Source: Pontibacter mangrovi
GTDB taxonomy: Bacteria > Bacteroidota > Bacteroidia > Cytophagales > Hymenobacteraceae
DNA length: 64,000 bases
Direction: 5' to 3'
Assembly (NCBI RefSeq): GCF_006385705.1
Contig: NZ_VFRQ01000003.1
Location: 248,001-312,000, forward strand
Positions 3,758 through 63,556 of the stretch are shown here, in pieces. Both the position numbers and the translations under genes were made by a program. The stretch's first letter is position 1; every line of letters begins with the position of its first letter. The notes below the pieces were generated by a model. The model saw only the letters and a list, made by a program, of their open reading frames with translations. It did not search any database and had not been told where the DNA came from.

Positions 3758-6700
3758 CTATTTACTTTGTAACTCCTGCTGTTTCGCTTTGGTCGTAGCT
3801 TTTTTCGACTCTACCAACGCGTCGTATTCTTCCTGGCTTCCCACGATTAGGTTCTGATATTCTCTCAGTCCTGTACCGGCCGGGATCAGGTGTCCTACAA
3901 TTACGTTCTCCTTCAGGCCAAGCAGTTCATCGGCCTTGCCCTTAATGGCTGCTTCGCTCAGTACTTTCGTTGTTTCCTGGAACGAGGCTGCAGAGATAAA
4001 GCTTTGCGTGCCCAACGATGCCTGCGTAATGCCTTGCAGCGTAGGACGAGACACTGCTGGTTGTGCATCTCGCACCGTCACCAGTTTCAGGTCTCTGCGC
4101 TTCAGGCTAGAGTTCTCGTCGCGCAGACGGCGAGGAGTCACAATCATACCTGGCTTCAGGTTGGCAGAGTCTCCCGCCTCCTCAACAACTTTCATGTCGA
4201 TGATATGGTCGTTCTCTTCCATGAAGGTAACCTTATCAACCGTTTGGTTCTCCAGGAAGCTCGTATCACCGGCATCCACTACCACCACTTTTTGCATCAT
4301 TTGGCGCACGACCACCTCAATGTGCTTATCGTTGATCTTCACACCCTGCAGACGGTATACTTCCTGAATCTCATTCACCAGATACTCTTGTACTGCACCC
4401 GGGCCTTGAATATTCAGAATGTCTGTAGGTGTGATGGCACCATCTGACAACGGCATACCTGCACGGATAAAGTCATTGTCCTGCACCAGGATGTGCTTCG
4501 AAAGTGGCACCATGTACTTCTTCTTCACCCCATCCTTAGACTCGATGAAGATTTCACGGTTACCACGCTTCACGCTGCCATATGTAACAACGCCATCAAT
4601 TTCAGACACTACTGCCGGGTTAGACGGGTTTCGCGCCTCAAACAGCTCCGTAACGCGTGGCAGACCACCTGTAATGTCTCGTGTTTTACCGATAGCACGC
4701 GGGATCTTCGCCAAAATCTGGCCAGCTTTGATCTTCTCGCCATTCTCCACTGTCAGGTGTGCACCCACTGGAATGTTGTAGCCTTTAGACTCACCATTCT
4801 TCGGATTCACAACAATGGCAGGGTTCTGCGTCTTATCCTTTGTATCGATGATTACTTTTTCACGGTAACCTGTCTGCTCATCAGATTCCTCACGGTACGT
4901 TATGCCTTCAATGATCGACTCATAAGAGATTTCACCATCGAACTCTGAAAGTATAACCGCGTTATATGGATCCCAATTACACAGCACAGCGCCTTTCTCT
5001 ACGACCTGTCCTTCATTTACATGTAGGAATGAACCGTAAGGAACGTGGTTGCTTATCAGCAGCTTGCCTGTATTTGGATCAACCACCTTCACTTCTCCGG
5101 AACGGCCCATTACTACTTTTACAGGCTCGCCTTCGTTGTTAACGGTATCCAGTGATCTTACATCCTCAAACTCGATCTTACCGCCGAACTTCGCCATAAT
5201 GGTCGCTTCTACCGCAATGTTAGAGGCAGTACCACCCACGTGGAACGTACGGAGTGTCAGCTGTGTACCCGGCTCACCAATAGACTGCGCAGCAATCACA
5301 CCAACGGCCTCACCTTTCTGCACCATAAAGCCAGTGGCCAGGTTACGTCCGTAGCATTTGGCACAGATACCACGCTTAGACTCACAAGTCAACACGGAGC
5401 GGATCTCTACCGATTCAATTGCCGTGTTTTCAATGGCACGGGCAATGTCCTCTGTAATTTCGGCGCCAGACTCAATGATCAATTCATTAGAGATTGGGTC
5501 GTATACATCATGTACAGCCACTCGTCCAAGGATACGCTCAGAGAGCGATTCCACGATATCTTCGTTGTCTTTCAAGGCGCTTACCTCTAGGCCACGCAAA
5601 GTACCGCAGTCCTCCTCGTTCACGATCACGTCCTGAGACACGTCAACCAGACGGCGGGTTAGGTAACCAGCGTCGGCAGTTTTAAGAGCCGTATCCGCCA
5701 GACCTTTACGTGCACCGTGAGTAGAGATAAAGTACTCGATTACATCCAGTCCTTCCTTAAAGTTAGAAAGGATCGGGTTCTCGATGATCTCGCCTACAGA
5801 GCCTTGCAGTGATTTCTGAGGCTTCGCCATCAGACCACGCATACCTCCCAACTGACGGATCTGCTCTCTCGAACCACGTGCACCGGAGTGCATCATCATG
5901 AAGATCGAGTTGAAGCCCTGGTTCTCGTTCTCCAGGCGGCGCATCAACGTTTCCGTAATTTGGTTGTTGATACGCGTCCAGATATCAATTACCTGGTTGT
6001 AACGCTCGTTGTCAGTAATCAGACCCATAGAGTAGTTCTGCCAAACAGCGTCTACATCTTTTTTGGCCTGCTCTACCAGTATCTCTTTTTCCGCCGGAAT
6101 GTTGATATCACCCAGACCCATGGACAAACCACCTTTATAGGCTGACTGGAATCCTAGAGTTTTAATATCGTCCAGGAACTGCGCTGTACGCGCCATACCT
6201 GTTTCTTTAAACACGCGGGAGATAATCTGCTGCAGTTTCTTCTTCGTCAGCAGCTCATCAATATAGCCCACCTCTTCTGGCACGAACTGATTGAAGATTA
6301 CACGACCGGCAACTGTCTCTATTAACTTAGTCTCTAGCTCGCCGTTCTCGTTTTTAATCCTTGTTCTTACCTTAATGTAGGCGTGCTTGGATATTCTTGC
6401 TTCGTTGATGGCGATGATCACTTCCTCGGCAGAGTAGAAGCTCATACCTTCACCAGCGATTTTCTCCTCTTCTGTGCTGCGCTTTCCTTTTGATACATAG
6501 TATAAACCTAGTACCATGTCCTGAGAAGGTACCGCAATTGGAGCACCGTTCGCAGGGTTCAGGATGTTGTGCGAGGCCAGCATCAGCATAGAGGCTTCCA
6601 GTACGGCAGCAGGTCCTAGTGGAACGTGCACCGCCATCTGGTCACCGTCAAAGTCAGCGTTAAAGGCCGTACACACCAGTGGGTGCAGCTGGATCGCCTT

Positions 6701-8074
6701 TCCTTCGATCAGCTTTGGCTGGAACGCCTGAATACCTAATCTGTGGAGCGTAGGGGCACGGTTTAGGAGCACCGGGTGGCCTTTCAGCACGTTCTCCAGG
6801 ATATCCCAAACTACAGGGTCCTTACGGTCTACTATTTTCTTGGCAGACTTCACCGTCTTTACGATGCCTCTTTCGATCAGCTTGCGGATGATGAACGGCT
6901 TGAAGAGCTCAGCCGCCATGTTCTTAGGCAGACCGCACTCGTGCAGCTTCAGCTCAGGACCAACCACAATTACCGAACGGCCAGAGTAGTCAACACGCTT
7001 ACCAAGCAAGTTCTGACGGAAACGTCCCTGCTTACCTTTCAGCATATCAGAAAGCGACTTCAGCGCACGGTTACCTTCTGCACGAACAGCGTTCACTTTA
7101 CGTGAGTTGTCGAACAGCGAGTCTACCGCTTCCTGCAGCATTCGCTTCTCGTTACGAAGGATTACCTCCGGAGCTTTGATCTCGATCAGGCGCTTCAGAC
7201 GGTTGTTACGGATAATAACGCGTCTGTACAGATCGTTTAGGTCAGATGTAGCGAAACGGCCACCATCCAACGGAACAAGCGGACGAAGCTCTGGCGGGAT
7301 AACAGGCACCATGCGGATGATCATCCACTCCGGTCTGTTTTCTATACGCGTAGTCGCATCACGGAAGGCCTCCACCACGCGCAAACGCTTCAACGCTTCG
7401 GCTTTACGCTGCTGCGATGTTTCGTGTGCGGCTGCATGGCGCAGCTCGTAAGAAAGGTCGTCCAGCTGAATGCGCTCCAGCAGCATTTGCAGGGCCTCGG
7501 CACCCATTTTCGCGATGAACTTGTTTGGATCATTGTTATCCAACATTTGGTTCTCGCGCGGCAGTTTATCCACCATGTCCAGGTACTCATCTTCTGTCAG
7601 GAAGTCCAGCGTGTTCACGCCGTCTTCCGCAAGTATACCTGGCTGGATAACTACATATCTTTCATAGTAGATGATCTGGTCAAGCTTTTTAGTAGGTAGG
7701 CCTAACAGATAACCTATTTTGTTTGGAAGAGACTTGAAGTACCAGATATGCGCTACAGGAACCACCAGTTCGATGTGGCCCATACGCTCGCGGCGCACTT
7801 TTTTCTCGGTCACCTCTACACCGCAACGGTCGCAGATGATGCCTTTGTATCTGATTCTTTTATACTTTCCGCAGTGGCATTCCCAGTCCTTTACGGGTCC
7901 GAATATTCTTTCGCAGAACAGACCACCCATTTCAGGCTTATAGGTTCTATAGTTTATGGTCTCAGGCTTTACTACCTCTCCGTTGGAACGCTCCAGGATT
8001 GACTCCGGCGAAGCCAAGCTGATCGTAACTTTAGAGAAGTCCTGAGTTAGCTTTTTGTTTTTCGCAAATGCCAT
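3758..8074 (-). CDS. rpoC: RNA polymerase beta' subunit
   Basis: The beta' subunit forms the catalytic clamp of RNA polymerase. At 1438 residues it is the size usual for Bacteroidota. The N-terminal zinc ribbon ([20 protein letters not shown]), the Mg2+-binding [12 protein letters not shown] near residue 470, and the second zinc cluster [13 protein letters not shown] with the adjacent [21 protein letters not shown] of the trigger-loop region are all present. It follows rpoB by about 100 bases and is followed at once by the DUF3467 gene. No truncation or split is seen. Confidence 0.98.
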
Positions 8075-8135
8075 ATTATTAGAATAATGTCGAATACAAT
8101 ATAAATGCCTTACAGCCTAACCAGTATAAGTATGC

Positions 8136-8165
8136 AAAGCGCTTTGGCTATTAGCCGCAGCGCCT
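8136..8165 (-). other. Hairpin between rpoB and rpoC
   Basis: An imperfect inverted repeat (AAGCGCT ... AGCGCCTT around an inner GGC-TATTA-GCC) lies in the rpoB-rpoC gap. No T-run follows on the minus strand. It is more likely an RNA processing or stability element than a terminator. Confidence 0.35.
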
Positions 8166-8178
8166 TGCTTTATACTTT

Positions 8179-11100: not shown

Positions 11101-12051
11101 AGAGTTATCTTTCTGAAGCGTGTTGTAGATAATAGCGTAGTCGGCGATGTTCACATTCTCACGGTGCAGGATAATGGACTGCACACCAGAGTCAAGTATA
11201 ACATCGATATCTTCAGGGGTGATTTCAGAGTCACGCTCTAAAAGCACTTCGTTACGGTCAATAGAAACTACTTCACCAGTATCTTCATCCACAAAGTCCT
11301 CTGTCCATGTTCTCAGCACACGGGCAGCCAGTCTGCGTCCGATAGAGTTTTTCAGTGTATTCTTATCCGCAGGCACTTCTTCCGATAAGCCGAACAGGTC
11401 CAGAATATCTTTATCAGTACCGTAGCCAATAGCGCGGAGCAGGGTAGTTACCGGGAATTTCTTCTTACGGTCGATGTAGGCATACATTACGTTATTCACG
11501 TCTGTTGCGAACTCCACCCAAGATCCTTTAAAAGGTATAATTCTGGCAGAATAAAGCTTTGTACCGTTTGTGTGCTTGCTCTGCGCAAAGAACACACCCG
11601 GAGAACGGTGCAACTGAGATACAATCACGCGCTCAGCTCCATTGATCACAAAAGAGCCTTTTTCGGTCATGTATGGAATGTTGCCTAAGAACACCTCCTG
11701 CTCAATTGTCTCAAAATCTTCGTTATCCTCATCGTTACAGATCAGGCGAAGTTTTGCTTTAAGCGGAACAGAATAGGTAAGGCCCCTGTCGATGCTTTCA
11801 TCCACAGAGTATTTTGGAGGATCTATATGGTAGTCGATAAACTCCAGTACGAAGTTTTCGCGTGAATCTGAAATAGGAAAGTTCTCGGCAAACACCTTGA
11901 ACAAACCTTCCTGCGCTCTATTTTCCGCTGGTGTTTCCAGTTGGAAGAAGTCCTGGAAAGACTGCACCTGAACATCTAAGAAGTCAGGATAGTCAATTAC
12001 AGGCTTTATAGAGGCAAAATTGATTCTATCTGTCGTTTTATTCTTAGCCAA
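8179..12051 (-). CDS. rpoB: RNA polymerase beta subunit
   Basis: The beta subunit carries much of the active site and the rifampicin pocket. The 1290-residue protein is complete from [16 protein letters not shown] to the C-terminal [19 protein letters not shown]. Rifampicin cluster I is near residue 465 ([20 protein letters not shown], then [20 protein letters not shown]). The Asp, His and Ser commonly mutated to resistance have wild-type identities. Other landmarks are [13 protein letters not shown], the [14 protein letters not shown] switch-region block and the [22 protein letters not shown]-terminal clamp. It lies between rplL and rpoC. Confidence 0.98.
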
Positions 12052-12157
12052 AGCCTTGGAATTTTACGTTTATAATCATTTAATAGCACACAGAGTCCAA
12101 AACAGCTGCGGGCAAAAAAAAGATCCAAATAACTTGAATCCGTATACAAACAGGAAA

Positions 12158-12181
12158 AGACCTGACGAATATGCCAGGTCT
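12158..12181 (-). terminator. Hairpin attenuator between rplL and rpoB
   Basis: On the minus strand AGACCTG and CAGGTCT pair around a 10-base loop, followed by TTTTCC. It lies 30 bases after the rplL stop and about 100 before rpoB. Partial termination here would lower rpoBC expression relative to L10 and L7/L12, as the rplL-rpoB attenuator does in enterobacteria. Confidence 0.6.
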
Positions 12182-12211
12182 ACCTGTTCTCAGTATGTTG
12201 ATAAAGCGGGA

Positions 12212-12592
12212 TTATTTAACCTCCACTTCAGCACCAGCTTCTTCCAGAGATTTCTTCAGTGATTCAGCCTCGTCTTTAGCAACACCTTCTTTCAGAGCTT
12301 TAGGAGCGCTATCTACTACTTCTTTCGCCTCTTTCAGGCCAAGACCAGTAAGCTCTTTTACAAGCTTCACCACTGCTAGTTTCTGAGCACCAGCTGATTT
12401 AAGGATTACGTCAAAAGAAGTTTTTTCTTCTGCAGCAGCTCCTCCTTCAGCAGCACCACCACCAGCAACCATCACTGGAGCAGCGGCAGCAGGCTCGATG
12501 CCATACTCATCCTTAAGGATTGTAGCTAGTTCGTTAACTTCTTTAACAGTTAAGTTTACTAACTGCTCAGCGAATGCTTTCAAATCTGCCAT
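12212..12592 (-). CDS. rplL: 50S ribosomal protein L7/L12
   Basis: The multicopy stalk protein that recruits translational GTPases. The 126-residue protein has the N-terminal dimerisation part ([20 protein letters not shown]), an Ala/Gly-rich hinge at about residues 33-55, and the C-terminal domain with [20 protein letters not shown] and [20 protein letters not shown]. It follows rplJ by 42 bases in the usual rplJL order. Confidence 0.97.
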
Positions 12593-12634
12593 TTTTATAG
12601 AAATTAATTGTTACTTATTGATTACGTTTTTAAA

Positions 12635-13159
12635 TTATTCTTTTTCTGATAAAGTTTTCAAGATACCCGCTAGCTTACCGCCGCTGCTCTGAAGTGCAGA
12701 AACCACATTCTTAGCAGGAGACTGCAGAAGACCGATGATCTCGCCAATAAGCTCGTCTTTAGACTTAATCTCAGATAGCGTCTTAAGCTGCTCTTCGCCA
12801 ATGAAAATACCACTGTCGATAAAAGCACCTTTTAAAAGAGGGAGCGTATTGCCTTTCTTTCTGAAGTCCTGAATCAGTTTCGCTGGTGCATTGCCTGACT
12901 CTTTCGAGAACAGGATACCGGAAGCGCCCTTTAAAACATCATCAAGCGCAGAAGTATCAGCTTCTAAAGTATCTAGCGCTTTCTTAATAAGTGTATTCTT
13001 GTACACTTTGTATTCGATACCACGATCGAATGCCATTCTTCTGAACGCGTTGATGCCGGCTACACTCATTGTGGAGGCATCAGTAATATAGAAGTAGTTC
13101 GTATTAGCTAACTTCTCGCTCAGGTCTTTTACAATTATCTCTTTTTCTTCCCTGGTCAT
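12635..13159 (-). CDS. rplJ: 50S ribosomal protein L10
   Basis: L10 anchors the L7/L12 stalk and often autoregulates its operon. I place the start at the ATG at 13159 (MTREEKEIIVKDLSEKL), which gives 174 residues and the standard family N-terminus and starts 4 bases after the rplA stop. An in-frame ATG nine codons further upstream would overlap rplA and add residues the family lacks. Recognisable blocks are ANTNYFYITDASTMSVAGIN, IEYKVYKNTLIKKAL and the C-terminal VSALQSSGGKLAGILKTLSE. Confidence 0.95.
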   Translation of the reverse strand: MTREEKEIIVKDLSEKLANTNYFYITDASTMSVAGINAFRRMAFDRGIEYKVYKNTLIKKALDTLEADTSALDDVLKGASGILFSKESGNAPAKLIQDFRKKGNTLPLLKGAFIDSGIFIGEEQLKTLSEIKSKDELIGEIIGLLQSPAKNVVSALQSSGGKLAGILKTLSEKE

Positions 13160-13163
13160 TTTC

Positions 13164-13856
13164 TTAGATAGTTGCGTTCTTGTCAACGATTACGGCCGGG
13201 CTCATTGTGCTAGACAATGTAATGCTCTTGATGTAAGTACCTTTAGCTGAAGAAGGCTTCAAACGGTTAAGCGTCTGGATTACCTCATTCGCGTTGGCAG
13301 CGATCTGCTCTGCAGAGAAGGAAACTTTACCTACACTTGTATGGATGATACCAAATTTATCAACTTTGAAGTCGATTTTACCGGCTTTCACCTCTTTAAC
13401 TGCTTTAGCAACATCCTGCGTTACTGTACCCGACTTAGGGTTTGGCATCAGGTTTCGTGGACCTAATATTCTACCCAAGCGACCAACTTTGGCCATAACA
13501 GCAGGCATAGTGATAATCACGTCCACATCTGTCCAGCCTTTTTCGATCTTCTGGATATAGTCATCAAGACCTACGTAGTCAGCACCAGCTTCTTTTGCTT
13601 CCTGCTCTTTGTCAGGAGTAACCAAAGCAAGTACCTTTACTTCTTTACCAGTTCCGTGAGGCAGTGTCACGATACCACGCACCATCTGATCAGCCTTGCG
13701 TGGATCTACGCCCAAACGTACATCAATATCAACAGAGGCATCAAACTTTGTAAAAGTGATATCTTTTACAACCGAGGCAGCATCTGTTAAAGAATATTCT
13801 TTTGCTAGATCGGCTTTGGCTAAAGCCGCTTTTCTATTTTTTGAGATCTTCGCCAT
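13164..13856 (-). CDS. rplA: 50S ribosomal protein L1
   Basis: L1 forms the stalk that contacts E-site tRNA and usually represses the L11 operon. I use the ATG at 13856 ([20 protein letters not shown]), giving 230 residues; a TTG three codons upstream is possible but unnecessary. Key family blocks are [40 protein letters not shown] and the C-terminal [19 protein letters not shown]. It sits between rplK and rplJ. Confidence 0.96.
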
Positions 13857-13868
13857 TTCCTTCAAATG

Positions 13869-14312
13869 TTATTCGTTCCACGGAGCTGTACCAGACACTG
13901 TAATTCCCATGCTTCTTGCTGTACCTGCCACCATTTTCATGGCTGACTCCAGTTTGAAAGCATTCAGGTCAGGCATCTTCGTTTCAGCGATCTCCTTTAC
14001 TTGATCCCATGTTACAGAACCTACCTTGTTACGGTTTGGCTCCTTCGAGCCACCTTTAATTTTGGCAGCGTCCATCAGCAACACTGGAGCAGGCGGAGTC
14101 TTAACAACGAAGTCAAATGACTTGTCTGCATAAATAGTAATCAAAACTGGTAACACCTGGCCAGCCTTATCCTGAGTTCTAGCATTGAACTGCTTACAGA
14201 ACTCCATGATATTAAGACCCTTAGAACCAAGTGCAGGTCCAACCGGTGGCGATGGATTCGCGGCACCTCCCTTTATCTGAAGTTTCAGATAACCTTTTAT
14301 TTCCTTTGCCAT
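13869..14312 (-). CDS. rplK: 50S ribosomal protein L11
   Basis: L11 forms part of the GTPase-associated centre and the thiopeptide site. The 147-residue protein opens with the usual [20 protein letters not shown] (proline-rich, about residues 10-29) and continues with [17 protein letters not shown] and the C-terminal [15 protein letters not shown]. The gaps are 12 bases to both nusG and rplA, so it is in the nusG-rplKAJL unit. Confidence 0.97.
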
Positions 14313-14324
14313 TATATGTATTTA

Positions 14325-14885
14325 CTACGATTCTTTTTCTACTTGCATGTAGTTCAGCTCAACCGGGGTGTTACGACCAAAGATCTTCACCATAACGTTA
14401 AGCTTCTTACGCTCTTCAAACACCTCTTCTACTGTACCAGAGAAGCCGCTGAAAGGACCATCCATCACTTTCACAATCTCCCCTACCACAAATGGTGTAT
14501 CCAGCACTTCTGCCTGCTCTTCCGCCTCATCAACTGTACCCAAAATCCTGTTTACTTCTGACTGGCGCAGTGGAACTGGCTTTTTGCTTGGAGAGCCCTT
14601 TTCATCTGTCCCCAGGAAACCAATAACTCCCGGAGTACTTATGATAATATGCTCTGCCTCACCATGCGATAAATCAGCGTTTACCAGCACATAGCCCGGA
14701 AAAAAGCTACGCTCTCTGATTCTCTTCTTACCGCCGCGCATCTCATAGACTTTCTCAGCCGGGATCAAAACCTGCGGAACGTACTCCGTAAGGTTATGAC
14801 GCATAATCTCATTCTCCAGATAAGCTTTGGCTTTTTTCTCTTGCCCACTAACGGCACGCACTACATACCACTTTAAATCAGTCAT
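14325..14885 (-). CDS. nusG: Transcription termination/antitermination protein NusG
   Basis: NusG binds RNA polymerase and links it to Rho or to ribosomal S10. The 186-residue protein has the NGN domain ([20 protein letters not shown] at residues 5-24, then [16 protein letters not shown]) and a C-terminal KOW domain near residues 128-180 ([20 protein letters not shown]). It follows secE by 11 bases, the standard secE-nusG pair. Confidence 0.96.
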
Positions 14886-14896
14886 GTATCTCTAAT

Positions 14897-15088
14897 TTAA
14901 AACTGGTTGTAAAACCATGTCAGCACTGTATCGAACCCGAAGTCCATAGCACCAACTACCAAAGCAAAAATCAAAGACCCAATCAGTACCAACACAGAGC
15001 TATTCTGCAGTTCTGCATACGCCGGCCAGGAGACTTTATTTTTCATCTCCTCAACAGTATCGTTTATGTAGGTCCTCATGTTGCTCAT
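14897..15088 (-). CDS. secE: Preprotein translocase subunit SecE
   Basis: SecE clamps the SecY channel in the inner membrane. I start at the ATG at 15088 (MSNMRTYINDTVEEM), giving 63 residues. Longer reading would run into tRNA-Trp, and an ATG at 15079 is the only close alternative. The amphipathic part with KVSWPAYAELQ (about residues 18-28) leads into a single membrane helix (VLVLIGSLIFALVVGAMDF). It follows tRNA-Trp by about 30 bases. Confidence 0.92.
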   Translation of the reverse strand: MSNMRTYINDTVEEMKNKVSWPAYAELQNSSVLVLIGSLIFALVVGAMDFGFDTVLTWFYNQF

Positions 15089-15119
15089 TGCTTCGCTTAC
15101 CAGATATTGAAAAAATTTG

Positions 15120-15192
15120 CACGGGTGGAGAGACTCGAACTCCCAGCCAATGGTTTTGGAGACCACTACTCTACCAATTGAGCTACACCCGT
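15120..15192 (-). tRNA. trnW: tRNA-Trp (CCA)
   Basis: The minus strand folds as a 73-base cloverleaf. The acceptor arms are ACGGGTG and CACCCGT, the D arm is GTAGCTCAATTGGTAGAG, the anticodon loop is CTCCAAA (anticodon CCA), and the T loop is GTTCGAGTC. The 3' CCA is not encoded. It sits between tuf and secE, a common bacterial arrangement. Confidence 0.95.
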
Positions 15193-15224
15193 AAAAAAAT
15201 GCACGCCAATTATTAATTGGAGTG

Positions 15225-15255
15225 CAAATTTATTCATAAGTTTTATGAAAACAAA
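15225..15255 (-). promoter_or_regulatory. Promoter for tRNA-Trp-secE-nusG
   Basis: On the minus strand TTTG (15255-15252), a 19-base spacer and TAAATTTG (15232-15225) match the Bacteroidota consensus exactly. It lies downstream of the tuf terminator and reads into tRNA-Trp, so the secE-nusG-ribosomal unit can start here. A hairpin at about 15200-15226, with a T7 run just before the tRNA, overlaps the expected transcript start. Confidence 0.82.
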
Positions 15256-15288
15256 CCCGATCTCAAAAAATGTTTCGAGATCGGGTTT
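15253..15288 (-). terminator. Terminator after tuf
   Basis: A perfect 12-base stem (AAACCCGATCTC on the plus strand) with a 12-base loop lies 12 bases beyond the tuf stop. On the minus strand it is followed by GTTTTCAT. It separates tuf from the promoter of the tRNA-Trp-secE unit. Confidence 0.8.
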
Positions 15289-15299
15289 GAAACATATAT

Positions 15300-16487
<1,188 letters not shown>

Positions 16488-16560
16488 TGTATGATATTAA
16501 ATTAAGGTTAAAACGTTTAAGTTTATGTCGCGCTTTTAAATATACACGTAACGGACTGTG

Positions 16561-16632
16561 AGCCAACGATGGGAATTGAACCCACGACCCCTTCCTTACC
16601 AAGGAAGTACTCTACCCCTGAGCTACGTCGGC
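16561..16632 (-). tRNA. trnT: tRNA-Thr (GGT)
   Basis: A 72-base minus-strand cloverleaf. The acceptor arms are GCCGACG and CGTTGGC with one G-T pair, the D arm is GTAGCTCAGGGGTAGAG, the anticodon stem is CTTCC/GGAAG around TTGGTAA (anticodon GGT), and the T loop is GTTCAATTC. The 3' CCA is not encoded. Confidence 0.95.
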
Positions 16633-16743
16633 TTTTAAAGCTGCCAGAAAACCACATCCCTATTTACACTAAAAAGGAAGCTCATCTGCATGAATTTCCT
16701 TCTCCAGTCCTTTGAGTAAATATATTTCCTGACTTCTTAAGAG

Positions 16744-16816
16744 AGCGGGAGACGAGGGTCGAACTCGCGGCCTATAGCTTGGAAGGCTATCGCTCTACCA
16801 ACTGAGCTACTCCCGC
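16744..16816 (-). tRNA. trnG: tRNA-Gly (TCC)
   Basis: A 73-base minus-strand cloverleaf. The acceptor arms are GCGGGAG and CTCCCGC, the anticodon stem is ATAGC/GCTAT around CTTCCAA (anticodon TCC), and the T arm contains GTTCGACCC. It is second in the Tyr-Gly-Thr-tuf transcript. Confidence 0.95.
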
Positions 16817-16888
16817 TTACTTTATACTATAATTTTGAATGATTTAAATTTGACTGAATTTCTCATTCATTCATTCAAAACTAATCTG

Positions 16889-16971
16889 TGGGGAGAGCAG
16901 GATTCGAACCTGCGAAGTCGTAAGACAACGGAGTTACAGTCCGTCCCATTTGGCCGCTCTGGAATCTCCCC
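16889..16971 (-). tRNA. trnY: tRNA-Tyr (GTA)
   Basis: An 83-base class II tRNA on the minus strand with a long variable arm. The acceptor is GGGGAGA paired with the terminal TCTCCCC, the anticodon stem is ACGGA/TCCGT around CTGTAAC (anticodon GTA), and the T loop is GTTCGAATC. It is the first gene of the tRNA-tuf transcript. Confidence 0.95.
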
Positions 16972-17052
16972 GAAGCTAATTTTACATTATATCAGCAGAA
17001 CTTTTCCTTAGACTTTCCCGGCTTAAAGCGCGTTCTTTGTTCTAAGGAGATG

Positions 17053-17083
17053 CAAAATTAAGCCCTTTTTGTTTCAAGTCAAA
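17053..17083 (-). promoter_or_regulatory. Promoter of the tRNA-Tyr/Gly/Thr-tuf transcript
   Basis: TTTG (17083-17080), a 19-base spacer and TAATTTTG (17060-17053) on the minus strand match the Bacteroidota consensus exactly. It lies about 80 bases upstream of tRNA-Tyr. The spacer and flanks are AT-rich, as expected for a strong stable-RNA promoter. Confidence 0.85.
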
Positions 17084-17121
17084 TATTCGCGCAAAAAATT
17101 GTTGTTTTTTTTTCTACTGCC

Positions 17122-19677
17122 TTACTCGCCGTACATATCCAGCAGCCGCTCATCCTTCTCGCCTGCCTTTATCTCCTGCAGAAGCGCCTGCACCTCCGGC
17201 TTTTCCGACATCACCATAAGTGCCTGATAGGCAGCTGCCCGCACATAGTATAAGTTGTGGTTTTTGGCATAGTCTGCCAGCAGGGCTATCGCTTCCGGTG
17301 TATTGGTCTGGCTGTTGGCAGCCAGGTAGGCGCCGAAGCTTTGAAGCAGATAATAGAGGTCGCCGTTATTCGCAGCGCGCAGTTTTCTTACGAACCAATC
17401 ATACTTTTCGGGCCCTGCCTGCACTGCGTACATGGTAGCAAGCGCCAACGACACCTCTTCATTCTCTTCATCCTCGAACTTAGCCAGCTGCTGCATGGTG
17501 TCTGCTGCCCCGGTGCCGGCATAGGCAAGTATGGCGGCTGCAGAAGCCTGGTAGGAACTATCCTGCATCGCTTGTTTAAACAGCTGTTGATGCTTATTGC
17601 CGTTCCAGGCTGCCAGGGCGAGCAAGGCGTCGGCACGGACAGAGCCTTTTGCATCCTGCGTGGCCATTTTCACCACCATGGGTTCTATTTTAGCCACCTG
17701 GCCTTCTTTCAGGCCGCTCAGGACACTGAGCGCGGCACTCCGTACTGCCCAGAAGTTGTCCTGTAGGCCTCGGCGGTACATCTCCTGCACCTGAGGCCGC
17801 GCCGCCTGCTCCTGCAGCTCAGCCATAGACTCCAACTTTAGCGCCAGTTGACCCGAGTTGCTGAACTGAAACAGCAGCTCATCCTCAGTTTTCTCATGGG
17901 TTACCTCTGCCAACAGCTGCTGCTCGGCATCAAACACCACCAACTGCGGCTTCTGCGCCACATCAAAAGTAAACACCTCCTCTGCCTGATCCACTACGAT
18001 CGGGAAGAGCTGCTCTTTACCGCCGGTCCATACTGCCACTTGCAGCGGCAAGCGGTAGATAGGCATATAGGTTGTGTCCTGCACCTGCCGCACGTGCAGT
18101 TGTAGCTGGCCTTTGTCATAGCTCTGCGTTACCGTTAACTCCGGGTGGCCCGGCTTCATAAACCACTGGTCGAAGAACCACATCAGGTCTTTGCCCGTCA
18201 CGTCCTCAAAGGCCATGCGCAGCTCCGCCACCTCTACATCCGAGAACTTGTTGCGCGTTAAGTACAGGTTCAGGGATGCCCACCAGGCCTCGTCGCCTAC
18301 CAGTGTGCGTAGCATGTGCAGCACGCGGCCCCCCTTGGCATAGGAGTGGCTGTCGAACATCTCTTCCTTGTCATTATAGTAATACCTGATAAGCGGCTCC
18401 CGCTTTGTCTGCGCCTCGCTCATGTACTGCCCCATTTCATCCAGTTGCAGGTAGGCTGCCTCGTCGGCGCCATACTTGTGCTCGGCCCACAGGTATTCCG
18501 AGTAGTTGGCAAAGGACTCGTTCAGGGGAAGGTTAGCCCACGACTCGGTAGTTACGTAGTCGCCGAACCACTGGTGAAACAGCTCGTGTGCGATGATCCC
18601 GTCCCAGCTTTTGTCCAGCAGCTCCCGCTCGTTCAGCTGCAGGTCCTCCATAAACGTAGAGGCTGAGGTATTCTCCATGGCACCTGAAACGAAATCGCGC
18701 ACCACCACCTGCGCATACTTCGCCCACGGGTACTTTACGCCAAGCTTCTGCGAGAAAAACTCCAGCATTTCCGGGGTGTTGCCAAAAATCTTCTTCGCCG
18801 TTGCCTCATACTCCGGCTCCACATAATAATCCACATCCATATCATGCCACTGGTCTTTTACCACGGCAAACTTGCCGATGGCCATCATGGCCAGGTATGG
18901 CGCGTGGGGCAGCTCCTGCTTCCAGTAGTCGGTTTTGGTGCCGTCCGCGTTTTGCCGCGAGTACATAAAGGTGCCGTTAGACAGGGTTGTAAACTCAGGT
19001 TTTACGGTGATGTAAATGTCCTGCGTCATGCGCTCGTTCGGCGTATCAAGGGTTGGGAACCAGGCAGAGCTGGCCTCGGTTTCGCCCTGTGTCCAGATCT
19101 GCTGCGGCTTGTTCGGGTCTGTGCCCAAAGGGTTGATAAAGTACAGGCCTTTATCTTCGGTGATGGCGTCGGAGCCGCCGGCCTCCAGCTCATTGGGCTT
19201 GGCCGTATAGTCTATCTCTAGTTTATACTCTTCCTCGCGGGTATACTCCCGGCCCAGGTCAATAGAAAGCTTCTGCCCGTCATACTCGTAATGCAGCGGG
19301 GTTGCCTCATAGCCGTTCATCAGGTGCACGCTGTGGATATCCATCCCTTTGGCATCCAGCACCAGCTGCCGCTGCGGGTAGAAGTATGGCTTCAGGGTAA
19401 GCTCGGCCAGGCCGTTCAGGTACTGCTTCTCCCAATCAAAGCTAACGCGCAGGGTGGTGTGCAGCAGGTCGTGCGCCTTGGTGCGGGACGGGTTAAACGC
19501 ATACTTCTTGGGCGCCCACACTGGCTCTGAAGTCTCGCTGGGCGCCTCTTCCTGGCTTATCTCCGGCAAAGGCGCATCCGGGCCGTTTGTATCTGAAACA
19601 GGCTTGCTTGTTTTGCAACCAACTGTTAAGGCCATGGAAGCGGCGAGGGCAACGGTACTCAGAAACCTATGATTCAT
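17122..19677 (-). CDS. M1 family zinc aminopeptidase, lipoprotein
   Basis: A gluzincin of the M1 (PepN/LTA4 hydrolase-like) family that removes N-terminal residues from peptides, probably in the periplasm or on an outer-membrane face. The 851-residue protein begins with a signal peptide ending in a lipobox (LTVGC, Cys21). The substrate-anchoring GAMEN is in VSGAMENTSASTF. The zinc site HELFH, 18 residues and then Glu, is at about residues 362-385 (the Glu in LPLNESFANY). The C-terminal 250 residues look like HEAT-type helical repeats (for example RADALLALAAW). It is a single gene, read away from the divergent biotin carrier gene. Confidence 0.93.
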   Translation of the reverse strand: MNHRFLSTVALAASMALTVGCKTSKPVSDTNGPDAPLPEISQEEAPSETSEPVWAPKKYAFNPSRTKAHDLLHTTLRVSFDWEKQYLNGLAELTLKPYFYPQRQLVLDAKGMDIHSVHLMNGYEATPLHYEYDGQKLSIDLGREYTREEEYKLEIDYTAKPNELEAGGSDAITEDKGLYFINPLGTDPNKPQQIWTQGETEASSAWFPTLDTPNERMTQDIYITVKPEFTTLSNGTFMYSRQNADGTKTDYWKQELPHAPYLAMMAIGKFAVVKDQWHDMDVDYYVEPEYEATAKKIFGNTPEMLEFFSQKLGVKYPWAKYAQVVVRDFVSGAMENTSASTFMEDLQLNERELLDKSWDGIIAHELFHQWFGDYVTTESWANLPLNESFANYSEYLWAEHKYGADEAAYLQLDEMGQYMSEAQTKREPLIRYYYNDKEEMFDSHSYAKGGRVLHMLRTLVGDEAWWASLNLYLTRNKFSDVEVAELRMAFEDVTGKDLMWFFDQWFMKPGHPELTVTQSYDKGQLQLHVRQVQDTTYMPIYRLPLQVAVWTGGKEQLFPIVVDQAEEVFTFDVAQKPQLVVFDAEQQLLAEVTHEKTEDELLFQFSNSGQLALKLESMAELQEQAARPQVQEMYRRGLQDNFWAVRSAALSVLSGLKEGQVAKIEPMVVKMATQDAKGSVRADALLALAAWNGNKHQQLFKQAMQDSSYQASAAAILAYAGTGAADTMQQLAKFEDEENEEVSLALATMYAVQAGPEKYDWFVRKLRAANNGDLYYLLQSFGAYLAANSQTNTPEAIALLADYAKNHNLYYVRAAAYQALMVMSEKPEVQALLQEIKAGEKDERLLDMYGE

Positions 19678-20344: not shown

Positions 20345-21112
20345 GTGAAGTATAAACGAATTTTGCTGAAGCTGAGTGGCGAGGCACTGATGGGCGAACA
20401 GCAGTATGGCATTGACTCTAACAGACTGCTGCAGTATGCCAAAGAGATTAAGGAAGTAGCCGAACTAGGTGTAGAAGTGGCCGTGGTGATTGGCGGAGGC
20501 AATATCTTCAGGGGCGTGCAGGCCGAGCAGGTGGGCCTGGACCGTGTGCAGGGCGACTATATGGGTATGCTGGCCACGGTTATCAACAGCATGGCCTTGC
20601 AGAGTGCCCTGGAGAAGCTGGGCGTATACACGCGCCTTTTGTCTGGCATCAACATTCAGCAGGTATGCGAGCCATACATCCGCCGCCGTGCGGTGCGCCA
20701 CCTCGAGAAAGGCCGCGTGGTTATTTTCGGAGCCGGCACCGGCAACCCATACTTCACCACCGACTCGGCGGCATCGCTGAGAGCCATCGAGATTGAGGCG
20801 GACGTGGTGCTGAAAGGTACCCGCGTGGATGGTATTTACTCTGCCGACCCGGAGAAAGACCCTGATGCCGTGTTCTACAGAAATATCTCGTTTAAGGATG
20901 TGTTTGAGAAGGGCCTGAACGTAATGGACATGACTGCCTTTACGTTGTGCAAGGAAAATGGTCTGCCGATCATCGTGTTTGACATGAACACGGCCGGCAA
21001 CCTGAAGCGCCTGGTGCAGGGCGAGGAAGTAGGCACGCTGGTAAGTATGGAGGACCTAGGCGAAACGCTGAAGAACACCGTAGACCAGATGCAGCAGGGC
21101 TCTAAAAACTGA
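20345..21112 (+). CDS. pyrH: UMP kinase
   Basis: PyrH phosphorylates UMP to UDP, a regulatory step of pyrimidine synthesis. The 255-residue protein is slightly longer than the usual 235-245. It starts at GTG, and [20 protein letters not shown] is the family N-terminus. [11 protein letters not shown] (about residues 48-58), [17 protein letters not shown] and [15 protein letters not shown] are diagnostic of the hexameric bacterial enzyme. It is followed by frr in the usual pyrH-frr order with a 60-base gap. Confidence 0.96.
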
Positions 21113-37617: not shown

Positions 37618-39537
37618 TTGGCAAAATTTTCTTTTCTGAACGTATGGCTTTGCGCCTGCCTGGGCTGCATCTGCACTACCGCTATAGCGCAGCAGGACAC
37701 GACGCAGCACCAGTTGCGCACTGTAGAGGTGTTCGGCAGGCCCGCCGAAGTATACGCCGCCGGCAGCCGCGTGGCGCAGGTGGATAGCGCTTTCCTGAGC
37801 ACCTACAGCTCTGGCAATCTGGCCGAGGCGCTGCAGGCCCGCACGCCGTTATACTTTAAGAGCTATGGCGCCAGCGGCAGCTCCACGGTAGCTTTCCGGG
37901 GCACCAACGCCTCACAGACCGCCGTCCTCTGGAACGGCCTCCACATCACGCCCGCCACGTTGGGCCAGGCTGATTTCTCTACTTTACCCCTGAGCGGCAT
38001 CGGTGAGGTGGCCCTGCAGTACGGCTCGGCGGCAGCAAACTATGGCAGCGGGGCTGTAGGCGGGGCTGTTTTGCTCAACTCGCCCAAGTATAAAACAGAT
38101 GGTTTTGGAGGGGATGTAAAACTGGAGGCAGGCAGCTTTGGCCGGTACTTTGGCAGCGGCAGCGCGGGCTACAGGGGCAAAAATCTTAGCTATGGCCTGA
38201 GCCTCTACAAGCATCAGGCAGAAAACGATTTCAAGTATAAAGACCTGAGCCGCTTCGGAACGCCGGAAGTGCGGCTGCAGCATGCGCAGGTACAGCAGCA
38301 CGGTTTTACACAGGATCTGAACTGGCAAATCTCGCCCAAAACAAAGCTGGCCCTGCATGGCTGGTATACTTTCTCGGACCGCGAGTTGCCGCCCGCCATG
38401 GGCTCATCAGACACGGAAGCGAAGCAAAAAGACAAGAACCTGCGCCTGATGGCGGAGCTGCAGCACCAAAGCCAGCTGGGGCAGACAAGTATAAAAGCGG
38501 CTTGGTTCAACGACCTCCTGCATTACACCGACCTTAGCAACGATTCTGAATCCGAAGTTAACACCGACCAGCTACAGGCGGAGCAGACCTATACCTCTGG
38601 CGAGCGCTGGAGCCTACGCGGCGGCCTGAACCTGCAGCGTTTTGCGGCAACGAACGATGGCTACCACGGCCGAAAAGATGAGAACCGCGCCTCCCTGTTC
38701 GCGCTTTTCCGCTACGACCCGGTGCAGCCGCTGCAGCTTTCGCTGAACCTGCGGCAGGCGCTGGTAGAGGGCTACGACCCGCCGCTCACCCCGGCACTGG
38801 GCTTTAACTGGAAGTTCTTCAATAGCAACCGGCATCAAATCTCTCTGAAAGGCAATGCCAGCGGCAGCTACCGCGTGCCCACCCTCAACGACCGCTTCTG
38901 GGTAGGCGCCGGCAACCCGGACCTGCGGCCCGAGCACGGCTGGAACTACGAGCTGGGCCTGCGCCACGTGCTGGTGCAGGGCAACGCCTTCCTGCTGGAA
39001 ACCGAGGCTACCGGTTACTTTATAGAGATTGACGATTGGATACAATGGTCGCCGAACCGTACCGGCCTCTGGCGGCCTACTAACCTGCAAAAGGTAGAGA
39101 GCAAGGGGCTGGAGCTGAGCACCACCGCCACGGTTACCTTAGGCAAGTTAAAGCTCAACAGCACCGCCGGCTATACTTATACTTTGTCGGAGCAGGTGGA
39201 GGTGTACGAGGGCAGCGGAAGCGATGTGGGCAGGCAGCTGATGTACGTGCCGCGCCACAAGGCCATCCTTACGGCTGAGGCAAACTATAAAAGCTGGAGC
39301 CTGCTGGGCAACCTGAACTACACCGGCCTGCGCTATACCTCCAACTCCGAAACAAGCCATCTGGATGATTTTACACTTCTGAACCTGGCCCTGAGCCGAA
39401 AGCTGCAGCTGGGGCCAAACACGCTCCTGCTCACGCTCCTCTCTGATAACATAACCAACACCGCCTATCAGACCATGGCTTACCGGCCCATGCCGCCGCG
39501 CGGCTATACGTTTAGCTTACGCTTTAGCATTCCATAA
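37618..39537 (+). CDS. btuB: TonB-dependent vitamin B12 receptor (BtuB-like)
   Basis: An outer-membrane active transporter of 639 residues for cobalamins. The start is TTG: an in-frame stop lies five codons upstream and MAKFSFLNVWLCACLGCICT is a signal peptide. The plug domain follows (TVEVFGRPAEVYAAGSRVAQ, then ALQARTPLYFKSYGASGSST, VAFRGTNASQTAVLWNGLHI, GSAAANYGSGAVGGAVLL), and then a 22-strand type beta-barrel ending MPPRGYTFSLRFSIP with a terminal aromatic region. The B12 substrate is inferred from the riboswitch 118 bases upstream and the BtuG-like gene 24 bases downstream. Confidence 0.92.
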   Translation: MAKFSFLNVWLCACLGCICTTAIAQQDTTQHQLRTVEVFGRPAEVYAAGSRVAQVDSAFLSTYSSGNLAEALQARTPLYFKSYGASGSSTVAFRGTNASQTAVLWNGLHITPATLGQADFSTLPLSGIGEVALQYGSAAANYGSGAVGGAVLLNSPKYKTDGFGGDVKLEAGSFGRYFGSGSAGYRGKNLSYGLSLYKHQAENDFKYKDLSRFGTPEVRLQHAQVQQHGFTQDLNWQISPKTKLALHGWYTFSDRELPPAMGSSDTEAKQKDKNLRLMAELQHQSQLGQTSIKAAWFNDLLHYTDLSNDSESEVNTDQLQAEQTYTSGERWSLRGGLNLQRFAATNDGYHGRKDENRASLFALFRYDPVQPLQLSLNLRQALVEGYDPPLTPALGFNWKFFNSNRHQISLKGNASGSYRVPTLNDRFWVGAGNPDLRPEHGWNYELGLRHVLVQGNAFLLETEATGYFIEIDDWIQWSPNRTGLWRPTNLQKVESKGLELSTTATVTLGKLKLNSTAGYTYTLSEQVEVYEGSGSDVGRQLMYVPRHKAILTAEANYKSWSLLGNLNYTGLRYTSNSETSHLDDFTLLNLALSRKLQLGPNTLLLTLLSDNITNTAYQTMAYRPMPPRGYTFSLRFSIP

Positions 39538-42309: not shown

Positions 42310-44517
42310 TTGGAGAAGAAGCCAACCATCCTGCTCATTACGCCACCGCTCACGCAACTCAACACGCCTTACCCGGCCACCGCCTATCTCAAGGGCTTTT
42401 TAACCGGCCGCGGCTACAGCGTTACCCAGGCCGACATGGGCATTGAGCTGGTGCTGCGCATGTTCTCCCGCAAAGGCCTTCAGCGTATTTTTGAGGCGAT
42501 AGAGCAGGGCGAGTATGAACTGTCGGACAACAGCCTGCGCATCCTGCACCTCAAGCGCGACTACCTGAACACCGTTGAGCCGGTGATTCGCTTCCTGCAG
42601 AACAAGGACCACACGCTGGCGCAGCAGATCAGCTACAGCCGCTTTCTGCCCGAGGCCTCGCGCTTCGACCAGGTAGAGGACATCGACTGGGCCTTCGGAA
42701 GTATGGGCATCACCGACAGGGCGCGCTACCTGGCTACTTTATACTTAGAGGACTTGGGCGATTTGATCAAGGAAACCATCTCGCCGCACTTTGCCTTCAG
42801 CCGCTACGCCGAAAAACTGGCGCTGTCGGCCACGTCCTTCGACCCGCTGGAGGAGGCGCTGCAGGAGGAGCCAAGCCTCGTGGACCTTATGTTACTGGAA
42901 CTACTGGAAGAGCGCCTGCAGGAGGTACAGCCGGATGTGGTGGGCTTTTCCATCCCTTTCCCGGGTAACCTGTACGGCGGCCTGCGGATGGCAAAGTATA
43001 TCAAGGAGAAGAACCCAGGTATAAAAACGGCCATGGGCGGCGGCTACCCCAACACCGAGCTGCGCAGCCTGCGCGAGCCGCGCCTATTTAAGTACATCGA
43101 TTTCGTGACGCTGGACGATGGCGAGGGCCCGTGGCTGAAACTGCTGGAGCACCTGCAGGGGCAGCGCGAGGCGGGGCAGCTGCAACGGGCGTTTATACTT
43201 GCCGGTGGCGAGGTAAAATTTATCAATGGCTCCACGGATGCCGATATTCCGCATATGGAGGTCGGCACACCCGACTACAGCGATTTGCCTTTGCCCGATT
43301 ACCTCTCGGTGATCGACGTGATCAACCCGATGCACCGCCTCTGGAGCGACGGCCGCTGGAACAAGCTCACCATCGCCCACGGCTGCTACTGGAAGCGCTG
43401 CTCTTTCTGCGACGTGACGCTGGATTACATCAACCGCTACGATGTGGCCCCGGCCACGCTGCTGGTAGACCGCATCGAGCAGATCATTGCCCAGACCGGG
43501 CAAACCGGCTTTCATTTTGTGGACGAAGCTGCCCCTCCTGCCCCACTCCGCGACATGGCCATCGAACTCATCCGCCGTGGCGTGAAAATCAGTTGGTGGG
43601 GGAATATCCGCTTTGAGAAAACCTTTACGCCGGACCTGTGCCGCCTGCTGGCCGCCTCGGGCTGTATTGCCGTGTCGGGTGGTTTGGAGGTGGCCTCGGA
43701 CAGGCTGCTGCAGCTGATGGCCAAAGGCGTCAGTATAGAGCAGGTGGCCCGCGTCACCGACAGCTTTACGCAGGCCGGCATTATGGTGCACGCCTACCTC
43801 ATGTATGGCTTCCCGACCCAAACTGCCCAGGAAACCATCGACTCGCTGGAGGTGGTGCGGCAGCTGTTCGAAACCGGCGTGATTCAGTCTGGTTACTGGC
43901 ACCGCTTCAGCATGACGGCGCACAGCCCTATCGGTAAGAGCCCGGAGAAGTATGGCGTGGTGAAAGTTGGTCCGCCGGAAGGGGATTTCGCCAACAACGA
44001 CCTCTGGCACGACGACCCGAAAGGCACCGACCATACTTTATTTGGCGAGGGACTGGCCAAGGCGCTTTATAACTACATGCATGGCATCGGCCTGGAGGAG
44101 CCGCTCTCGTTCTGGTTTGATTTTAAAGTGCCGCGCACCAAGGAGAACCCAAACCTGATCACCCAGGCTATCTCCGCTCCGCACCGCCCCGACAGTACCC
44201 GCCCCAACGCGCGCGCGCTCTGGCTAGGGAACACGCCGGCCATCGATTTCACCATGATCGCCCAGAAAGGCCAGACCATAGAGCGCTGCCTGCTTACGTT
44301 CTTCGAGAAGGGCGAGGATTTTGAGGTGAAGACTACCGCCATTATCGGGCAGTGGCTGTTTGAGGTGCTGCAGAAAATTACGCCCGACAACGCGGAGGCG
44401 GTGACGCTGAAGCAGCTGGAGGCAAGCTTCCCGGCCGAGGCACACCTGAGTTTTGCCGAGTTCCTGAGCTCGCCGAGCTGGTTTGACCTGCGGGAGCGGG
44501 GGCTGTTGTTGCTGTAA
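42310..44517 (+). CDS. B12-binding-domain radical SAM protein
   Basis: A 735-residue enzyme with an N-terminal cobalamin-binding-type Rossmann domain (KPTILLITPPLTQLNTPYPA, then VGFSIPFPGNLYGGLRMAKY) and a radical SAM domain. The start is TTG, required to keep the conserved N-terminus; the first in-frame ATG is at codon 43. The cluster motif is HGCYWKRCSFCDVTLDY, near residue 358. The Cys spacing is x4-x2 rather than the usual x3-x2. Later blocks (VSGGLEVASDRLLQLMAKGV, VHAYLMYGFPTQTAQETIDS) are typical of the superfamily. The substrate is unknown. Confidence 0.88.
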   Translation: MEKKPTILLITPPLTQLNTPYPATAYLKGFLTGRGYSVTQADMGIELVLRMFSRKGLQRIFEAIEQGEYELSDNSLRILHLKRDYLNTVEPVIRFLQNKDHTLAQQISYSRFLPEASRFDQVEDIDWAFGSMGITDRARYLATLYLEDLGDLIKETISPHFAFSRYAEKLALSATSFDPLEEALQEEPSLVDLMLLELLEERLQEVQPDVVGFSIPFPGNLYGGLRMAKYIKEKNPGIKTAMGGGYPNTELRSLREPRLFKYIDFVTLDDGEGPWLKLLEHLQGQREAGQLQRAFILAGGEVKFINGSTDADIPHMEVGTPDYSDLPLPDYLSVIDVINPMHRLWSDGRWNKLTIAHGCYWKRCSFCDVTLDYINRYDVAPATLLVDRIEQIIAQTGQTGFHFVDEAAPPAPLRDMAIELIRRGVKISWWGNIRFEKTFTPDLCRLLAASGCIAVSGGLEVASDRLLQLMAKGVSIEQVARVTDSFTQAGIMVHAYLMYGFPTQTAQETIDSLEVVRQLFETGVIQSGYWHRFSMTAHSPIGKSPEKYGVVKVGPPEGDFANNDLWHDDPKGTDHTLFGEGLAKALYNYMHGIGLEEPLSFWFDFKVPRTKENPNLITQAISAPHRPDSTRPNARALWLGNTPAIDFTMIAQKGQTIERCLLTFFEKGEDFEVKTTAIIGQWLFEVLQKITPDNAEAVTLKQLEASFPAEAHLSFAEFLSSPSWFDLRERGLLLL

Positions 44518-44559
44518 AGTATAAGCCCGAAGCTTACTTTGGCTTCGGGCTTATACTTT
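44516..44559 (+). terminator. Terminator made of inverted AAGTATA words
   Basis: A perfect 18-base stem (AAAGTATAAGCCCGAAGC and complement) with loop TTACTTTG. The 5' arm begins inside the stop codon of the radical SAM gene. Two more copies of the word overlap just beyond (TATACTTTATACTT). Confidence 0.9.
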
Positions 44560-44621
44560 ATACTTTATACTAATCTTGATGGATTATTGTGCATGGATTG
44601 GTTCCACAGTTTATTTAGAGC

Positions 44622-60653: not shown

Positions 60654-60721
60654 TAAACAACGGATAGTGCAATACCGTTATACATGCGACATATCACCTT
60701 AACAAGAACCCAAAATTTTAC

Positions 60722-61861: not shown

Positions 61862-61947
61862 AAGGCAGTAGCAGGGGCCAAAATACGGGCTTCTGCTTGC
61901 TTTAAAGTATAAAAACATGTTTGGCTAATAAATATTTAGCCAATGAG

Positions 61948-61979
61948 TTGATTTTTAAGTGTAAGGTTGCTTACATTTG
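61948..61979 (+). promoter_or_regulatory. Promoter of rpsU
   Basis: TTG (61948-61950), a 21-base spacer and TACATTTG (61972-61979), 33 bases before the rpsU start. Confidence 0.75.
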
Positions 61980-62012
61980 CAACCCTAAATCCAAAGAGAA
62001 GCGAGGAAAAAT

Positions 62013-62207: not shown

Positions 62208-62235
62208 TATCTCTAACAAGATATTTTATTTTTCC

Positions 62236-62280
62236 ATAAATTAGTAAACCTGCGTTACTCAGGCAGGTTTACTAATTTAT
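62236..62280 (+). terminator. rpsU terminator overlapping the xerC start codon
   Basis: A perfect 18-base inverted repeat (ATAAATTAGTAAACCTGC and complement, arms 62236-62253 and 62263-62280) with loop GTTACTCAG. The final two bases of the 3' arm are the A and T of the ATG of the next gene (62279-62281). Confidence 0.87.
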
Positions 62281-63157: not shown

Positions 63158-63185
63158 TAAGTTCCACTTTTTAAATGTTAAGCAT

Positions 63186-63485
63186 ATGAAGCTACAGATG
63201 CATTCCATCCACTTCGAGGCAGACCAACAACTTGCTGACTTCATTCAACAGAAGGTAGACAAACTCGAGACTTTTTACGATCGCATTGTGGAAGGCGAAG
63301 TGTTTCTTAAACATAACAACACTGATGGCATAAACAACAAGACTGTGGAGATCAAGCTGTTTGTGCCCGGCTCTACCCTATTCTCACAAGAGGACGCCCC
63401 ATCTTTTGAAGCCGCCGCCGATGCCGCTGTAGAAGCTATGCGCCGACAGCTGAAACGTTTTAAAGAGAAGCAGTTGGCACACTAG
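63186..63485 (+). CDS. hpf: Ribosome hibernation-promoting factor (short HPF/RaiA family)
   Basis: A 99-residue protein that binds the 30S decoding region and helps stall or dimerise ribosomes in starvation. I use ATG 63186 (MKLQMHSIHFEADQQLADFI); an upstream in-frame ATG lies inside xerC. The family shape is QKVDKLETFYDRIVEGEVFL and a C-terminal ADAAVEAMRRQLKRFKEKQL. It lacks the long C-terminal extension. It follows xerC by 28 bases. Confidence 0.93.
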   Translation: MKLQMHSIHFEADQQLADFIQQKVDKLETFYDRIVEGEVFLKHNNTDGINNKTVEIKLFVPGSTLFSQEDAPSFEAAADAAVEAMRRQLKRFKEKQLAH

Positions 63486-63497
63486 CCCTGTGCTGAG

Positions 63498-63556
63498 AAA
63501 GTATAAAAGCCATGCGGCCCGCTAGATACTAGCGGGCCGCATGGCTTTTATACTTT
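63498..63556. terminator. 27-base perfect-stem bidirectional terminator with AAGTATA ends
   Basis: A perfect 27-base inverted repeat (63498-63524 and 63530-63556) with loop GATAC. It starts with AAAGTATAAAAGCC and ends with the inverse, so an AAGTATA word sits at the base of each arm. It lies between convergent hpf and metK and should end both. Confidence 0.93.

Follow-up and report, generated by a model that had tools for sequence, protein, structure and literature searches.

Why does one short word, AAGTATA, recur so densely on both strands of a 64-kb stretch of the Pontibacter mangrovi genome (contig NZ_VFRQ01000003.1, positions 248,001 to 312,000, analysed at its full length and denoted the window), and what keeps it there? 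The initial annotation of the window had counted by hand about 82 copies of AAGTATA or TATACTT (52 of TATACTT to 30 of AAGTATA) and had proposed a DNA uptake or other chromosomal signal. The computed count agrees closely, with 31 copies of AAGTATA and 52 of TATACTT, thus 83 against 9.2 expected from an order-2 Markov model, and the word is the top-ranked over-represented 7-mer of the window. The spelling AAGTATG, likewise described as frequent, contributes 59 of the 142 copies of AAGTATR (R denoting A or G), for which 100 dinucleotide shuffles give a mean of 11.5 and a largest value of 20. As argued below, AAGTATR is probably a self-recognition word for natural transformation, namely a DNA uptake signal with dialects similar to the DNA uptake sequences (DUS) of Neisseriaceae and the uptake signal sequences (USS) of Pasteurellaceae.

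The enrichment extends over the whole 4.88-Mb draft genome, in which AAGTATAA is found 4,006 times (1,922 + 2,084) versus 97 times (47 + 50) for the reversed word. The UvrB of this genome shares 91-95% identity with that of nine Pontibacter records, the nearest ones obtained in a comparison from which records of the genome itself may be missing. In a 464-kb set composed of the window and 20 further stretches of 20 kb from the same genome, with genes called by a simple script, AAGTATA occurs 486 times within genes versus 66.4 times (standard deviation 8.0) after within-gene shuffling of synonymous codons. All six strand and frame classes exceed the shuffle expectation, including those forcing the codon ATA (A-AGT-ATA, 83 vs 1.9; T-ATA-CTT, 91 vs 5.7), so the enrichment does not reduce to codon pairs of a single frame. 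A codon effect is ruled out, since neither the synonymous shuffles nor the reversed-word controls reproduce the enrichment. Within the window the different frames are illustrated by the copies at 20348..20354 (plus strand, sense frame 0, AAG TAT A), 25694..25700 (minus strand, TTA TAC TT on the gene strand), 35299..35305 (minus strand, ATA CTT on the gene strand, codon ATA) and 38487..38493 (plus strand, AGT ATA on the gene strand, codon ATA). These examples had been recognized before with coordinates that were slightly off, the TTA TAC TTT word having been placed at 25690. Two overlapping copies are furthermore found within one gene at 39172..39184 on the minus strand. Reversed-word control, codon shuffles and the retention in relatives described below agree with the earlier proposal that the DNA word itself is maintained and not a peptide, which is thereby well supported.

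The maintained unit is AAGTATR, preferably preceded by A and followed by A, C or G but not by T, while the flanks beyond these immediate neighbours show no base preference and no common sequence. The copies in the window extend from 2336 to 63555, with 54 on the plus and 88 on the minus strand and 39 outside predicted genes; the high density that had been claimed for 4356..63556 is present, but the range starts earlier than claimed. The longest stretch devoid of AAGTATR in the 464 kb is located in the window at 11201..17399 (6.2 kb) and harbors EF-Tu (15300-16487) as well as small genes. The second longest, of 4.8 kb and 37% GC (G000:C1:70620-75378, corresponding to L084:10620-15378), looks acquired, and three of its reading frames (153, 221 and 446 amino acids) have no Pfam match.

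Comparison of the 33-60 kb part of the window with nine Pontibacter relatives of 74-78% identity depicts how individual copies fare between species, a check that had been suggested by the initial annotation. In four relatives employing the same word (AAG relatives), 51 of 113 own words are kept exactly, twice the proportion of A+T-rich control 7-mers (22%). In three relatives with the spelling AGGTATR (AGG relatives), 1 of 82 own words is kept (control 17.7%), and 17 of the 82 positions are occupied by AGGTATR instead (3.5% in the control for this substitution). In P. silvestris and Pontibacter sp. E15-1, for which no clear word is seen, 1 of 16 and 1 of 12 own words are kept, respectively. 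Copies are thus held in place as long as the dialect is shared, and in another dialect some of them are respelled where they stand.

These dialects become apparent when the genus is compared as a whole. Among 150 genomes of the family, of which 50 belong to Pontibacter and 100 to five other genera, AAGTATAA is present in 2,125-7,030 copies in 23 Pontibacter genomes and in 204-1,201 copies in the other 27, and in the 100 genomes outside the genus its count is close to that of the reversed control, which it exceeds by a factor of about 2.5 at most. Scanning of the genomes low in AAGTATAA for raised words revealed respelled forms: AGGTATA(G) in 12 genomes as well as in the named P. amylolyticus, P. 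aquaedesilientis and Pontibacter sp. HSC-14F20, AACTATA(G) alone in four genomes, and AAGTATA together with AACTATA in three. The resulting labels for the 50 genomes, some of which rest on 3.8-7 kb, are AAG (20), AGG (12), AAC (4), AAC+AAG (3), ATATATR-like (1, from 58 kb of one genome), weak AAG (1) and none (9). Genome-wide counts for the three words agree with the labels, as AGGTATAG occurs 2,823-5,222 times in the 12 AGG genomes versus 173-833 times in the other 38, and AACTATAG 2,002-8,208 times in the seven AAC-bearing genomes versus at most 907 times in the other 43, with the value of 907 found in the AAG-labelled G043. The frame common to the spellings is A-NN-TATR, the fit of the ATATATR-like word to it being provisional.

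The dialects follow phylogeny. On a tree of ComEC from 49 of the 50 genomes (G046 has no frame over 300 codons and was left out) 10 label changes are required, versus 26.1 in shuffles. The 11 AGG genomes included form one side of a branch (93/99) and the seven AAC-bearing genomes one group (100/100). The AAG label is dispersed over the tree, as would be expected of an ancestral state, and the word-less genomes require several changes. The nine word-less genomes (G013, G028, G073, G095, G109, G113, G115, G125 and G127) are among the larger ones, with 5.2-6.5 Mb versus 3.8-5.5 Mb in the word-bearing genomes. In G071 a segment (G071:C1:1944098-1946633) contains at least 39 copies of AGGTATAG on one strand, spaced regularly by 64-69 bases, and resembles a CRISPR or another tandem array, with the sister word included in the repeat unit apparently by chance.

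Inverted word pairs form hairpins. A strong one in the window, at 63497..63557, comprises 29 consecutive base pairs with the word at the base of both arms and a T-rich outer arm and is terminator-like (fold -57 kcal/mol, z -10.65). At 44517..44565 three word copies are found at a gene end, the outer pair of which folds as a hairpin (44517-44558, -30.2 kcal/mol), and an intergenic hairpin of -22.3 kcal/mol is formed by an inverted pair at 8128..8177. Folding of the 464 kb yields 39 hairpins from inverted pairs with pairing arms, 24 of them intergenic, compared to 22 for the opposite word order and none for the reversed word, which is itself much rarer. Near gene ends, the arrangement of the most stable hairpins is AAGTATAAAA-stem-TTTTATACTT. 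The signal rests on folding and not on the spacing of the pairs, since inverted intergenic pairs at 12-60 bp are, as a class, not in excess (+- 23, -- 23, -+ 14, ++ 14). Such word pairs in terminator hairpins have likewise been reported for the USS of H. influenzae (PMC5217627).

If the word acts in transformation, the corresponding genes should be considered, and of those pointed to by the initial annotation comEC and dprA are indeed present, whereas a type IV pilus ATPase was not detected (see below). ComEC and DprA are found in all 50 Pontibacter genomes and are free of stops in 48 of 50 each, the internal stops of both hitting the same two genomes, G087 and G046; in G119 the ComEC frame is short (561) without a stop. 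A ComEA-like helix-hairpin-helix protein of about 304-346 residues (311 amino acids in P. mangrovi) is encoded in all 50 genomes; its frame is open in 49 of them, and the exception is G087, where it is disrupted. Given this presence and joint breakage, the transformation pathway appears, as judged from the gene sequences, to be retained in Pontibacter and, where lost, to be lost as a whole. The dialect word reaches a higher density in ComEC than in the flanking DNA in 15 of 16 genomes, with G087 as the exception (tested were 16 of 21 genomes with 17-20 kb loci, three word-less genomes, the ATATATR genome and G046 being left out), and the DprA gene of P. mangrovi is dense as well, with five words in 1.1 kb. 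In the same phylum, Riemerella has been reported to be transformed without pili by means of ComEC, DprA, ComF, RecA, a helix-hairpin-helix protein and proteins of unknown function (PMC8459023), and a preference for own DNA has been described for R. columbina (PMC7965970).

From these patterns we infer that the word acts at uptake. A putative cell-envelope protein would prefer DNA fragments carrying the word, and the imported fragments would pass the ComEA-like helix-hairpin-helix protein and ComEC and then be recombined with DprA and RecA. Copies would accumulate because word-bearing alleles would be imported more often, and they would be held wherever the sequence tolerates them. Upon a shift in receptor preference the genome would be rewritten to a new spelling (AAG, AGG or AAC before TATR), partly in place, and the rewritten spellings would constitute the dialects separating lineages.

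Several observations weigh against such a role in uptake. The nine word-less genomes retain ComEC, DprA and the ComEA-like protein. Conversely, the word persists in G087 and G046, whose transformation genes are broken, and no clear decay of it is seen, the ratio of one-mismatch to perfect-word excess being 0.58 and 0.33 compared to 0.37-0.56 in six other genomes; a decay of the word following the loss of the transformation genes is thus not seen there. In G131, whose ComEC and DprA are free of stops, AAGTATA is weakly raised with a one-mismatch ratio of 1.39, and judged by these values its word looks to be decaying. The word excess of ComEC shrinks to a small difference after codon control, with 9.0-fold in 37 genomes (the word-less, ATATATR and weak genomes, G087 and G046 being left out) versus 6.9-fold for the genes of P. 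mangrovi. A position bias of the word along genes was not found (p 0.32 and 0.05). For the PilB-type ATPase (PF00437), only partial matches covering at most about 66 of 370 positions were obtained in all 50 genomes, secretin and pilins not having been searched, and known pilus-borne receptors are therefore unlikely. Homology to the DUF5689 protein of Riemerella does not lead to a receptor either, as this family, the sole candidate examined, is present in 22 of the 50 genomes but absent from P. mangrovi; at the seven of the 22 loci inspected the neighbours are SusD- or TonB-receptor-like by eye or unrelated, or the gene is part of a very long protein. No receptor candidate was identified among 10 proteins scanned around comEC and the gene of the ComEA-like protein. 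An uptake signal as put forward by the initial annotation nevertheless provides the best fit with respect to density, occurrence on both strands, frame independence, hairpins, dialects, and retention and joint breakage of the genes; it is supported in part, no recognizing protein having been found.

The alternatives named in the initial annotation, a Chi-like site and a nucleoid-protein site, fit worse. A Chi-like recombination hotspot, where the word would control an AddAB/RecBCD-type nuclease during break repair, would account for a short, non-palindromic word that is very frequent in genes, and also for a weak excess on the G-rich strand, which holds 614 versus 541 words (53%) in 23 pieces of the P. 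mangrovi genome and 390 versus 301 (56%) in 13 pieces distributed over the main contig of G129. The plus-strand excess of TATACTT noticed earlier thus exists, but as an effect it is slight and does not come near the polarity of a replication-linked signal; Chi of E. coli, by contrast, shows a strong leading-strand bias. Furthermore, several respellings and word-less genomes within one genus are not expected of an essential repair signal, rendering this explanation improbable. There is as little in favour of a DNA methyltransferase site kept for an epigenetic or repair role, for which the cyanobacterial repeat HIP1 with its similar density and its connection to orphan methyltransferases is the precedent (PMC4390886). 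Contrary to HIP1, AAGTATR is not a palindrome and exists in four spellings, and N6/N4 methyltransferases of PF01555, the sole family searched, are absent from 19 of the 50 genomes, among them 13 of the 41 word-bearing ones.

A binding site of a chromosome-structuring protein acting in nucleoid organization or segregation would agree with copies on both strands throughout the genome and with their higher density between genes (for AAGTATA in the 464 kb, 3.8 per kb versus 1.2 per kb inside, a threefold difference). The respelled and word-less genomes in one genus, the missing strong polarity along the chromosome and the thinning of the word in the EF-Tu region and the 37% GC stretch argue against it, however, and it appears marginally less probable still than the two preceding explanations. 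Finally, a by-product of codon use, mutation bias, promoters or a repeat element, although suggested by the A+T-richness of the word and by its enrichment between genes, is very improbable and as a full explanation contradicted by the shuffles and reversed-word controls, by the retention in same-dialect relatives, by flanks unlike those of a repeat element, and by an intergenic AAGTATR density that is maximal between convergent genes (7.5 per kb) and minimal between divergent ones (3.7 per kb), the reverse of what a promoter box would show.

Dense words of unlike spelling are encountered outside the genus. Of 80 loci of named relatives, the 74 of at least 9 kb were scanned, and most of them contain nothing comparable to the Pontibacter word. 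In a few loci from other Cytophagales (up to 23 kb), words are similarly enriched and exceed the codon shuffles in several frames, the counts in genes being 52 vs 8.2 for AAGTACC in Rhabdobacter roseus, 26 vs 5.6 for the same word in Persicitalea, 38 vs 9.5 for AAACCGC in Larkinella rosea and 21 vs 2.4 for AGCTAGG in Hymenobacter crusticola. In whole genomes AAAGTACC is found 7,686 times in Rhabdobacter roseus (control 442), 2,457 times in Persicitalea (506) and 926 times in Telluribacter (373), and at most 348 times in the other five genomes tested; a sample of 148 genomes of the order contains no strong carrier. Further raised words in the locus scans are AAACCGCT and AAACCGT in two Larkinella species, ACCTAGCT in Hymenobacter crusticola, CTACCCC in H. 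sediminis and CTATAGC in Ohtaekwangia koreensis.

Outside Neisseriaceae and Pasteurellaceae, two families that use pili, dense uptake words with dialects are not known to occur. At slightly less than even chances, Cytophagales possess an independent, pilus-free, sequence-specific DNA uptake with fast-changing dialects that are read by an undescribed receptor. The words of this system might then, with the same reserve, be A-NN-TATR in Pontibacter, AAGTACC in Rhabdobacter and Persicitalea, AAACCGC/T in Larkinella and ACCTAGCT in Hymenobacter crusticola. If true, DNA tags that confine bacterial sex to the own lineage would have arisen a third time, dialect switching would amount to a species barrier, and a further case, in Bacteroidota and without a detected pilus ATPase, would suggest that DNA is bound by a receptor of a new type. 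How sexual isolation evolves by means of DNA tags would become directly testable, since the spellings vary repeatedly in one genus with mixed and word-less genomes in between, and addition of the word to donor DNA could ease the transformation of such bacteria. Among the matches listed, no account of such a word is given in the open literature on uptake sequences in Bacteroidota, Cytophagales or Hymenobacteraceae, on natural competence or transformation of Pontibacter or on natural transformation of Hymenobacter, and the terms Bacteroidetes, Cytophaga, Hymenobacter and Spirosoma are absent from the paper on HIP1 (PMC4390886).

The Pontibacter word is likened here to DUS and USS but not classed with them, a membership that is not established as neither a receptor nor a pilus ATPase was detected. 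HIP1 of cyanobacteria resembles it as a very dense short word but is palindromic, has a single spelling and is tied to methyltransferases (PMC4390886). The pilus-free machinery of Riemerella, from the same phylum, shares ComEC, DprA, the helix-hairpin-helix protein and the lack of a pilus ATPase, whereas no uptake word has been established for Riemerella and its DUF5689 protein is without a general counterpart in Pontibacter (PMC8459023). The USS of Pasteurellaceae are a different word, and the bias to gene ends reported for them within genes (PMC2346458) was not found in Pontibacter; they are similarly dense in and between genes, however, form inverted pairs as terminator hairpins (PMC5217627, PMC2346458) and have one orientation that is commoner in genes, as has AAGTATA (264 vs 222). 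The DUS of Neisseriaceae, whose receptor in Neisseria is ComP (PMC3868556), have the core CTG and belong to another phylum, in contrast to A-NN-TATR in a genus without a detected pilus ATPase. At the same time they resemble what is observed here, with thousands of copies per genome on both strands, a fixed core accompanied by variable letters, and dialects that follow phylogeny and include genomes with two dialects as well as genomes with none (PMC3630211).

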